The position numbers and the translations under genes are program-made. From Nonomuraea gerenzanensis (GTDB lineage Bacteria > Actinomycetota > Actinomycetes > Streptosporangiales > Streptosporangiaceae): a DNA stretch of 64,000 nucleotides. Each line of letters starts with the position of its first letter. Positions within the stretch are counted from its first letter, which is position 1. The notes below the pieces were generated by a model, which saw nothing but the letters and a program-made list of their open reading frames with translations, was not told where the DNA came from and did no database searches. Shown here piece after piece: positions 11,481 through 13,831 of this stretch. The stretch spans positions 11,896,501 to 11,960,500 of the forward strand of contig NZ_CP084058.1 in assembly GCF_020215645.1 (NCBI RefSeq), given 5' to 3'.

Positions 11481-12461
11481 ATGGATCAACTACTGCGCAA
11501 CCCGGCCGTCGCCGCCGGGCTGGCCAAGGTCGAAGCCAGGATCCGGCGGCTGAGCGGCTCGTCCGCGCTGCCCGCCATCAACGCCGGCGCCGGGCGGGTC
11601 GTCTCGGCGGGCGGCAAGCGGCTGCGGCCCGCCCTGACGCTGGCCGCCGCGCTCGCCCTCGGCAGGACGCCCGACCGCCGCCTGATCACGGCCGCGGCCT
11701 GCGTCGAGCTCATCCACGCGGGCTCGCTCGTGCACGACGACCTCATGGACCGGGCCACGGAGCGCCGGGGCGCCAGGACGCTCAACGCCGAGCTGGGCGA
11801 CGGCAAGGCGCTGGTGATCGGCGACTTCATGCTGGCCAGGGCCGGGCTGGCGGCGATCACGCAGGTGTCGAGGCCGGTGGCCGAGGTGCTGGCGGCGACG
11901 GTGGTGGAGCTGGCGGAGGGGCAGTACCTGGAGACGGCCGACCTGTTCGACACCACGCGTACGCCGGAGAGCGCGCTGCGCTCGATCACCGGCAAGACCG
12001 CCGCGCTCTTCAGGGCCGGTTGCCTGGTGGCGGCGGTGTGCGCGCACGCGCCGGCCGAGGACAGGGCGCGGATGGGGACGTACGGGGAGAAGTTCGGGCT
12101 GATCTTCCAGGTGCTCGACGACCTGCTCGACCTGACCGCCACCAGCGAGCAGCTCGGCAAGCCCGCCGGGAACGACCTGCGGCAGGGCGTCTACAGCCTG
12201 CCCCTGCTCCTGTCGGGGATCGAGCCGGCCGAGCTGCCGGGCCGGGGCAGCACGGACGAGCAGGTGGCGCAGGTGCTGCGGCGGGTGCGGGCGAGCGGCA
12301 TGACGGCCGACACGATCGCGTACTGCCGGGGGCTGGCGGCCGACGCGGTGGCCGCCCTGCCGGTGATCCAGGACCCGGAGATGGCGGGCCTGCTGCGCGG
12401 CCTCCCGTCGGCGTACATCGACCAGGTGGCACGTCTGACGCACCTGACTTCGGTGAGTTGA
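11481..12461 (+). CDS. Polyprenyl diphosphate synthase (trans-isoprenyl synthase)
   Basis: A 326-aa all-helical enzyme. GKRLRP is at residues 45-50, the first Asp-rich motif HDDLMD at 85-90, and the second DDLLD at 213-217. It condenses isopentenyl diphosphate with allylic diphosphates to make a polyprenyl chain, probably for menaquinone side chains. Chain length cannot be read with confidence. It is not in an operon with menaquinone or carotenoid genes here. Confidence 0.9.
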   Translation: MDQLLRNPAVAAGLAKVEARIRRLSGSSALPAINAGAGRVVSAGGKRLRPALTLAAALALGRTPDRRLITAAACVELIHAGSLVHDDLMDRATERRGARTLNAELGDGKALVIGDFMLARAGLAAITQVSRPVAEVLAATVVELAEGQYLETADLFDTTRTPESALRSITGKTAALFRAGCLVAAVCAHAPAEDRARMGTYGEKFGLIFQVLDDLLDLTATSEQLGKPAGNDLRQGVYSLPLLLSGIEPAELPGRGSTDEQVAQVLRRVRASGMTADTIAYCRGLAADAVAALPVIQDPEMAGLLRGLPSAYIDQVARLTHLTSVS

Positions 12462-12464
12462 GAT

Positions 12465-12476
12465 TTGTTGGAACAA
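12465..12476. promoter_or_regulatory. Inverted repeat TTGTTGGAACAA upstream of the 4-TM/TS-like operon
   Basis: A perfect 5-2-5 dyad beginning 4 bp after the polyprenyl synthase stop and 72 bp before the 4-TM start. It is AT-rich against a GC-rich background and well placed for an operator or promoter element of the two-gene operon. Confidence 0.4.
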
Positions 12477-12547
12477 TTGGTAGAAATCCCGGCCCCATTC
12501 CCGAAAAATGCGCTCATACTGGAGTTACAGCTACCAGGAGCACGCAC

Positions 12548-13222
12548 ATGCGGAAGATCCCCCAGCGCATGGTCAAGGAGGAGGACGACCTGGCGCCGAG
12601 CCAGTTCCTCCAGCTCGCCGCAGTGGACTTCAACGGTGTCTACGCGGTCCACCTCGCCGCCAAGGAGGAGCGGCTGAAGATGACCAGGCTCGCGCTGAGC
12701 CTGCTCGCCGGCCCCTTCTTCGCCGCGATCGCGCTGGCCAGTGCCAAGGTGGTCGATCCGCAGCGCCTGACCGAGTGGCAGTCCGTGCCGTGGTATCTGT
12801 TCGCCCTGGTCATCGCGTTCGGGGTGCTGAGCGTGCTGCCGTTCCTGCGCCTCATCGAGGCGGTGGACGCGCACGCCCGCACGGCCCGCGCGATCAACAA
12901 CTTCCGGCTGCTGTACTCCACCAGGCTCAGGGACGACCTCGACTGGAGCCCCAACCTGCCGGTCGATCCGCGCTTCCCCGAGACCTACGCACCACTCGCC
13001 TGGCCCGGCATCAACGTCATGGTGCTGGCCACGGTGAACTCGACGTACCTGACCGTCGGCGTCACCGGCCTCAGCGGGCAGGAGCCGAACCTGCTCCTGC
13101 TCCTGACCGGCATCCTGCTGGTCGCGCTGGTCCACTACGCCGTCTACTACATCCGCTGCAACGTCTCCAGGCGGCGGCGGCTTCCTCGCAACCGGTACCA
13201 GATTCCGACTATGGAGGGATAA
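12548..13222 (+). CDS. Four-TM membrane protein, partner of a TS-like protein
   Basis: A 224-aa protein with no recognised family. An N-terminal amphipathic region (1-45) is followed by TM1 (about 46-66) and TM2 (82-101), a cytoplasmic linker of about 50 residues with R/D-rich sequence (105-150), then TM3 (153-172), TM4 (181-203) and a basic tail. Start ATG 12548 has an AGGAG Shine-Dalgarno. Its TAA stop directly abuts the ATG of the thymidylate-synthase-like gene, so the pair is translated together. The two-TM-pair layout recalls small membrane effectors of nucleotide-centred immune systems, but this is only an analogy. Confidence 0.75.
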   Translation: MRKIPQRMVKEEDDLAPSQFLQLAAVDFNGVYAVHLAAKEERLKMTRLALSLLAGPFFAAIALASAKVVDPQRLTEWQSVPWYLFALVIAFGVLSVLPFLRLIEAVDAHARTARAINNFRLLYSTRLRDDLDWSPNLPVDPRFPETYAPLAWPGINVMVLATVNSTYLTVGVTGLSGQEPNLLLLLTGILLVALVHYAVYYIRCNVSRRRRLPRNRYQIPTMEG

Positions 13223-13831
13223 ATGCCCGGCCCAGCACTTTGGGCGTCGTGTGGGGAGGCGTGGATCAGGTTGATGCGCCATGTCTGGTCGGCGGGGACC
13301 CTCGCCGACGACGATCGGGGCCCCGTCATAGAGGCGCCGTCCGTGCTGTTCGAGATCGCGAGGGTCAGCGGGGACGATCCGATCATCGCGCGGTACGGCG
13401 ACGCGGACCGGCTGGCGCTCTACCGCAGGAAGTTCAGCGAGCAGACGGTGGTGCCACCGTTCAAGTACAGCTACGCGGCCAGGATCGGCGGCCAGCTCGG
13501 CTGGGCGGCCGACCTGCTGCGGCTCAAGCCGTACAGCAAGAGCGCGTGGATCTCGCTGACCACGCCGGGCGAGGCGTACGACGCGGTGCCGTGCCTGATC
13601 GGGCTGGCGTTCCGGATCAGGGAGGGCGCGCTGCTGATGACCGCGACCTTCCGCTCCCAGAACGCCTACACCAGCTACCTCAACTACCTGCCGCTCGCCG
13701 ACGTGCACGCGGCGATGGCCGCGAAACTGGAGGTGGAGCGGGGGCCGATGCGGGTGTTCGTGGACGTGCCGCACCTGTACCTGTCCGACAGCCCGAGGGT
13801 GTTCCCCGTCATGTGGCGGCCCCTGTCATGA
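13223..13831 (+). CDS. Divergent thymidylate-synthase-fold protein
   Basis: A 202-aa protein that can be lined up by eye with the core of ThyA. AVPCLIGLAFRIREG corresponds to the ThyA APCHAFFQFYVADG strand, with the catalytic cysteine kept (Cys124) but the next His replaced by Leu. FRSQNAY (143-149) matches the QRSCDVF region, keeping Arg-Ser of the dUMP phosphate site. HLYLSD (184-189) matches the conserved HLY. It lacks the standard N-terminal region and C-terminal folate segment (ThyA is about 264 aa). Start ATG 13223 has GGAGG just upstream. Likely a pyrimidine-nucleotide-binding or modifying enzyme; substrate unknown. It converges with the MFS gene, overlapping it by 6 bp. Confidence 0.7.
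   Translation: MPGPALWASCGEAWIRLMRHVWSAGTLADDDRGPVIEAPSVLFEIARVSGDDPIIARYGDADRLALYRRKFSEQTVVPPFKYSYAARIGGQLGWAADLLRLKPYSKSAWISLTTPGEAYDAVPCLIGLAFRIREGALLMTATFRSQNAYTSYLNYLPLADVHAAMAAKLEVERGPMRVFVDVPHLYLSDSPRVFPVMWRPLS

Follow-up and report, generated by a model that had tools for sequence, protein, structure and literature searches.

The window analyzed here is a 64,000-nucleotide (nt) stretch of Nonomuraea gerenzanensis DNA, close to an end of the largest contig (genome size, 12.07 Mb). It carries a pair of genes suggestive of an undescribed membrane system for handling nucleotides in soil actinomycetes. The first gene encodes a membrane protein (P1) and the second a short protein of the thymidylate synthase (TS) superfamily (P2):

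12548..13222, plus strand: P1, 224-amino-acid membrane protein (translation, structural model, and orthologue alignment)
13223..13831, plus strand: P2, 202-amino-acid TS-superfamily protein (translation, match to TIGR03283, structural model, and Foldseek and VIA matches)

The stop codon of P1 adjoins the ATG of P2 (gap of 0), and the distance was 0 in most of the 35 loci measured (extremes, -4 and +90). The arrangement proposed in the preliminary description, a four-helix membrane protein followed by a TS-like protein, is thus present as two abutting open reading frames. We call the pair undescribed in the sense that no paper on a P1-P2-type pair was found in the open-licence library searched. 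ThyA residue numbers refer to Escherichia coli ThyA throughout.

TS-fold enzymes are textbook cytosolic nucleotide enzymes. The P2 model (predicted local distance difference test score [pLDDT] of 93.2; predicted TM score [pTM] of 0.90) matched phage AfhB, MilA, and ThyA in Foldseek and VIA, and the top 50 Foldseek matches were all TS-superfamily chains (E values from 5.2e-14 to 4.3e-10). The nearest fold was AfhB, whose PDB chains are deposited as "Thymidylate synthase"; the PDB also gives dCMP hydroxylase with FAD. A profile of 24 P2 orthologues matched PDB chains of AfhB (7e-6), MilA (2e-5), and true ThyA (0.0016), and a 27-row profile matched MilA (2.1e-13) and L. casei ThyA (2.7e-9). Alone, P2 matched the NCBIfam methanogen TS family TIGR03283 at 1.8e-11 over profile positions 7 to 198 of 201, with a score of 43.9 bits, under the curated cutoff of 174.55. 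Pfam PF00303 was matched by 12/24 P2 orthologues (best E, 1.8e-8), and the Pfam search with P2 itself gave no PF00303 match. The resemblance of P2 to TS is more than chance, and the structural match on which the preliminary description had staked its case was found by both Foldseek and profile comparison. As modeled, P2 has its close fold neighbors among folate-free enzymes and hydroxymethylases.

In the alignment to ThyA, residues C146, R166, S167, N177, H207, Y209, and Y94 are kept in P2 as C124, R144, S145, N154, H184, Y186, and Y84, and three places are changed: H147 to Leu125, R126/R127 to Lys106/Ser107, and D169 to Asn147. The alignment assigns Cys124 as the nucleophile, R144 and S145 to the phosphate, N154 to the base, and H184 and Y186 to the sugar. 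Cys124, FRS at 143 to 145, HLY at 184 to 186, and a Leu at the place of the ThyA His all stand where they had been reported. The TS-superfamily signature (catalytic Cys, phosphate Arg/Ser, and sugar His/Tyr; C124, R144, S145, H184, and Y186 in P2) was complete in 58/58 P1-bearing genomes. The ThyA-type Asp169, the cross-subunit Arg126/127, and the C-terminal folate lid are all absent from P2, whose chain ends 16 residues past Tyr186. It had also been proposed that the N-terminal and folate-binding parts are missing. This holds for the C-terminal lid but not for the N terminus, which is not simply missing: P2 aligns to TIGR03283 from its residue 9, and the stretch lacking a reliable counterpart is the ThyA Glu58/Trp80 part. 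The Glu58 column is not conserved (mostly D in one alignment, mixed E/R/D and others in another), and the alignment is unstable there. Because the methanogen-type family is itself 201 positions long, P2 is not alone in being short.

These substitutions bear on both substrate and cofactor. According to two sources (PMC5175136 and PMC6400193), Asn at the base-reading place goes with uracil and Asp with cytosine in the superfamily; the residue is Asn154 in P2 and Asp in AfhB, MilA, and five long actinobacterial relatives. The latter are TS-like proteins (L061, L063, and L068 to L070) that resemble CMP/dCMP hydroxymethylases. P2 and AfhB have the motif RSQN in common, with ThyA Asp169 replaced by Asn147 and Asn186, respectively. 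Folate independence of P2 is favored, because Asn stands at the D169 place, as in AfhB, and because the title of PDB entry 1bjg states that the D169N ThyA mutant "does not promote opening of the cofactor imidazolidine ring"; the absence of the C-terminal lid counts in the same direction. The CMP hydroxymethylase signature of MilA and BcmA, given in PMC5175136 as Lys133', Ala176, and Asp186, is matched in P2 by Lys106 but not by Ser145 or Asn154. The host genome has a ThyX match at 1.5e-39 and no second TIGR03283 match at 1e-5; therefore, the supply of dTMP probably does not depend on P2.

P1 and P2 form a genuine, conserved pair whose two members seem to be functionally linked. In a family sample of 297 genomes (cutoffs of E 1e-5 for P1 and 1e-20 for P2), P1 occurred in 48 and P2 in 87, and by listed coordinates P2 was adjacent and on the same strand in 48/48 P1 genomes. 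The remaining 39 genomes had P2 only: 37 of them belong to one genus, here called g93, and two are divergent. In a class-wide sample of 394 genomes, which overlaps the family sample, all 8 genomes with P1 also had P2, and one g93 genome (G460) had P2 at 7.4e-72 without P1. Among 148 relatives, P2 was matched at E < 1e-70 in 34, with P1 beside it in 34/34 (tblastn of loci); nine further genomes gave distant or partial TS-like matches only. The preliminary description had named rare co-occurrence of the two genes as a finding that would speak against it; in these samples, P1 always occurred with P2.

Within the genus, occurrence is patchy (28 of ~54 same-genus genomes), and the pair can be lost, since one Nonomuraea genome (G050) retains only a 46-residue P2 remnant at its usual place. 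Neighboring genes named in this work (LCP, LysR, MFS, methyltransferase, polyprenyl synthetase, ilvB/N/C, serA, leuB, and ilvE) were recognized by eye, without a family search. In 23/23 Nonomuraea-type loci, the gene downstream of the pair is what we take to be a LytR-CpsA-Psr (LCP) type gene, and the G050 remnant lies at this LCP-side place; in other genera the cassette lies at other places. We presume the ancestral place to be between ilvC and serA, where three genes are found in L118 and L119, the pair in L215 to L217, and P2 alone in eight g93 loci. In four of the eight g93 loci examined (L210, L211, L213, and L214), a different polytopic membrane protein with 7 to 8 predicted helices precedes P2. 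By eye, a 555-amino-acid protein at L107:5654-7321 carries a TS-like stretch behind another domain, and a second, full-length ThyA-like gene lies near it in L107, at 11782-12702.

P1 is a conserved membrane family without a recognized relative. Its model (pLDDT 76) has long helices at 17-65, 82-131 (broken at 95), 154-176, and 182-209, and the orthologue alignment reveals a strongly conserved segment at about 117-154 (NNFRLLY...WSPNLP...PLxWPG) between helices 2 and 3. P1 itself had no Pfam or NCBIfam match above a curated cutoff, no match in PHROGs or PADLOC, and nothing significant in PDB-sequence and fold searches. Among 24 P1 orthologues, even the strongest Pfam and NCBIfam matches were weak and discordant: CopD in 3/24 (best E, 0.00011), Chordopox_A13L in 2/24 (0.00053), DUF5368 in 18/24 (0.0022), and SLATT_1 in 7/24 (0.055). 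Since these families disagree, nothing was drawn from them. An origin of P1 from SLATT domains was considered and is unsupported: P1 scored 11.5 bits against NCBIfam SLATT (cutoff, 41), and the hhalign probability against 28 actinobacterial SLATT domains was 0.7%, compared to up to 1.2% for 15 column-shuffled controls. A SLATT search of the host genome found no match anywhere, and its controls were likewise without match. Three actinobacterial proteins (L230, L231, and L235) have two SLATT matches per open frame and would accordingly have four membrane helices.

To compare the P2 site in the presence and absence of P1, P2 sequences from all 58 P1-bearing genomes found among the 148 relatives and the family sample, and from all 37 g93 genomes without P1, were aligned to one profile. 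With P1, each of R32, Y84, K106, C124, R144, S145, N147, N154, H184, and Y186 was present in 58/58. These include two genomes with a damaged P1 (G498, with an in-frame stop, and G516, truncated), both of which keep the full P2 site. Without P1, K106, N154, and Y186 each fell to 0/37 and R32 to 8/37; C124 remained in 15/37, with seven different replacements, Y84 in 16/37, and S145 and N147 in 29/37 each. Of 19 control columns named beforehand, 14 stayed at 37/37 and the others at 34/37 or more. Among the 77 columns invariant (≥95%) with P1, 20 were kept in less than half of the P1-less genomes: six in the nucleotide site (R32, Y84, K106, C124, N154, and Y186), eight in 67-83, and six elsewhere. 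The decay thus concentrates on the site and its lid but also reaches beyond them. Segment 67-84 does not vary where P1 is present and has mostly gone where P1 is missing.

A quick tree, with nine tested columns omitted, covered 35 of the 58 P1-bearing rows, all 37 rows without P1, and 3 from the outgroup. A single branch (SH-aLRT, 99), placed within the P1-bearing part of the tree, set off all P1-less rows, and Cys/not-Cys required at least 7 changes, all inside the P1-less clade. The P1-less P2 genes have no stops, and their omega values (0.09-0.50, 8 pairs) compare with 0.13-0.26 for 8 P1-bearing pairs; they are therefore not pseudogenes but genes under purifying selection. The g93 orthologues at the ilvC-serA place (L106, L208 to L214, and L259 to L287) are likely TS-fold pseudoenzymes. 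The loss of P1 thus goes together with a release of constraint on the TS active site; the nucleophile then changed repeatedly, while the scaffold has stayed under selection for some other role. With the site intact in 58/58 genomes with P1 and partly decayed in 37/37 without it, there appears to be a functional link between P1 and the P2 site. Short TS proteins do not in general require P1 for an intact site, since in three outgroup members, all lacking P1, the Cys, Asn, Tyr, and His are retained, although R144 is not.

A third gene frequently accompanies the pair outside Nonomuraea. In 13/23 non-Nonomuraea P1-P2 loci examined (a count that leaves out 7 P1-bearing genomes, L288 to L294, fetched over the pair only), P2 is followed by a HAD gene, with a 98-nt overlap in 7/9 loci of one subset. 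For the three members tested, the best family was TIGR02254, the YjjG noncanonical pyrimidine nucleotidase (1.8e-36, 7.2e-38, and 2.2e-42), with scores of 125.7, 130.3, and 145.1 bits, all under the cutoff of 159.9. Among the 148 relatives, this YjjG-like subfamily (E < 1e-50) occurred in 4, each time beside the pair; the best match in the host genome was at 2.0e-9 with 29% identity. In L115, which has no YjjG-like gene, the neighbors include an ABC permease, for which a putative B6 transporter model was the closest, and an amidohydrolase most similar to 5'-deoxyadenosine deaminase and TRZ/ATZ hydrolases; all of these family matches were below cutoffs. By eye, the surroundings of L114 look like those of L115.

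Upstream of P1 the window holds two conserved blocks:

12463..12487, plus strand: conserved block ATTTGTTGGAACAATTGGTAGAAAT, from the alignment of 24 upstream regions; contains the inverted repeat at 12465-12476
12512..12522, plus strand: -10-like block GCTCATACTGG, conserved in the alignment; ends 25 nt before the P1 ATG

The first block follows the pattern ATTTGTTGGAA(CA/TG)ATTGG... in the 24 aligned loci, with part of it missing in L024. The inverted repeat noted earlier, TTGTTGGAACAA, does lie at 12465-12476; however, it is a palindrome in only 12/24 aligned upstream regions, the window included, and the conserved unit is the longer block 12463-12487 rather than the palindrome alone. Allowing up to 3 mismatches, a scan of the window and 1.9 Mb of fetched loci gave 27 distinct matches to the first block, and every one of them immediately precedes P1. 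By eye, the sequence upstream of the pair differs in other genera. Block 12463-12487 is a possible operator or upstream promoter element, and the two promoter-like blocks spanning 12463-12522 may answer to a dedicated regulator.

Taken together, we lean slightly toward the view that P2 is a catalytic uracil-nucleotide enzyme that works with P1. Cys124 would attack C6 of a uracil nucleotide (UMP or dUMP), a specificity suggested by N154, and would modify or activate C5, probably without methylene-tetrahydrofolate. P1 would be the membrane partner, with the P2 reaction or its product serving P1 or a pathway that has P1 as its membrane end point; its role may be transport, anchoring, or output. 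Where present, the YjjG-like enzyme would remove the 5'-phosphate of the (modified) pyrimidine nucleotide. A bolder form of this proposal, in which a folate-free P2 makes a 5-modified uridylate (e.g., 5-hydroxy-UMP) that P1 responds to or handles and that a dedicated nucleotidase clears or releases in many lineages, is speculative and on balance unlikely. Several points weigh against a catalytic P2 working with P1. P2 has no conserved Glu aligned to ThyA Glu58, whereas AfhB retains one, so P2 may be catalytically altered; the ThyA phosphate Arg pair is Lys-Ser; and the sugar rules for MilA give a divided result, Lys106 being ribo-like and Ser145 deoxy-like. The YjjG-like gene is missing from 10/23 loci, and no YjjG-like match reached E 1e-50 in the Nonomuraea genomes searched. 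No relative or fold match constrains the function of P1. Part of the site stays without P1 (R144, 37/37; S107, 37/37; H184, 33/37), and decay extends beyond it (E12, L17, D30, V122, A129, T150, and most of 67-84 are mostly lost). Finally, the P1-less condition is that of a single clade; the case for coupling therefore derives from one loss event, and the coupling could operate at the level of a pathway rather than through physical contact.

Other explanations can be weighed against the same data. P2 could be an AfhB-like, flavin-dependent C5 hydroxylase producing 5-hydroxy-UMP or 5-hydroxy-dUMP for dephosphorylation by the YjjG-like enzyme, with P1 supplying reducing power or exporting the nucleoside; AfhB is the nearest fold and has the RSQN motif, but it differs at the base place, and we consider this doubtful. 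A nucleotide sensor without turnover, with uridylate, bound or trapped covalently, controlling the state of P1 (e.g., an ion leak or pore), would account for the failure to find P1 without P2, the decay of the P2 site where P1 is gone, and the reduced folate parts. Yet the invariance of Cys124 in 58/58 genomes exceeds the need of plain binding, P2 outlives P1 in genus g93, G498 and G516 keep a full site beside a damaged P1, and a metabolic nucleotidase adjoins the pair in many loci; a sensor therefore seems rather unlikely. That P2 is an ordinary second TS of the short methanogen type, with P1 an incidental neighbor, fits TIGR03283 as the best curated family and the uracil-type Asn. It is very unlikely given the score of 43.9 bits against a cutoff of 174.55, the replacement of Asp169 by Asn and of Arg126/127 by Lys/Ser, the ThyX in the genome, and a site whose state goes with the presence of P1.

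The preliminary description had suggested a nucleotide-sensing or nucleotide-modifying membrane system, possibly related to defense. Its first part remains a fair description, given the kept site, the conserved pair, and the coupling; its second part lacks support. Neither the YjjG-like third gene of other genera nor the possible folate independence figured in it. An antiphage pair of membrane effector and nucleotide sensor would suit the two-gene layout, the patchy occurrence within Nonomuraea, and the subthreshold SLATT matches in 7/24 P1 orthologues (best E, 0.055), although the SLATT profile comparison was no better than shuffled columns (0.7%). However, PADLOC returned 0 families for P1 and P2 at E up to 10, and P1 had no match in 50,697 phage records. 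P2 had 25 matches in the phage records, all distant TS genes and none spanning 80% of P2. The sole match in the plasmid collection was an 11.85-Mb Nonomuraea gerenzanensis record titled "plasmid I" (NZ_LT559118.1; L154) that is evidently a chromosome, in which P1 and P2 are both 100% identical to those of the window, leaving no true plasmid carrier. Because there is no PADLOC match, the chromosomal sites are stable, and P1 is absent from the phage records, a defense role is not supported and strikes us as far-fetched. A mobile origin was likewise ruled against by the PADLOC, phage, and plasmid searches and by synteny, all of them negative.

An enzyme that retains its TS-fold active site only where a membrane protein accompanies it would put the fold to a new use. 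If P2 does make a 5-modified uridylate, the pair would parallel, in cells, the 5-hydroxylating branch of phages and, to our knowledge, P2 would be the first TS-superfamily enzyme with a membrane partner. The P1-less genus offers a natural control, since P2, a Cys mutant, and decayed orthologues can be compared side by side.

Among known systems, the SLATT two-helix membrane effectors recall P1 through subthreshold matches and the long helices of the P1 model but differ in that P1 has four helices and that profile comparison gives no support. YjjG (TIGR02254) is the best family of the third gene in the members tested, which come from other genera, with scores under the cutoff; in Nonomuraea no YjjG-like gene lies beside the pair. 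ThyA and the methanogen-type TS (PF00303 and TIGR03283) resemble P2 in fold and in the counterparts of C146, R166, S167, N177, H207, Y209, and Y94, and the methanogen type also in length; unlike ThyA, P2 lacks counterparts of H147, R126, R127, and D169, and P2 scores below the TIGR03283 cutoff in a host with ThyX. MilA (CMP 5-hydroxymethylase; PDB 5b6d), which PMC5175136 describes as a folate enzyme of an antibiotic pathway, has a TS fold, a Lys at the cross-subunit phosphate place, and a pyrimidine monophosphate substrate, all likenesses to P2, but also an Asp at the base place, Ala for Ser near the sugar, and a large C-terminal domain. AfhB (5-hydroxy-dCMP synthase of RB69-type phages; PDB 9iqu and 9iqc; RB69 ORF048c), a phage enzyme for a DNA base precursor according to PMC13390438, differs from P2 in its Asp at the base place and its retained Arg pair and Glu, and P1 has no phage match; nevertheless, it resembles P2 in its short TS fold, the absence of a C-terminal folate lid, the catalytic Cys, and an RSQN motif with Asn at the place of ThyA Asp169.
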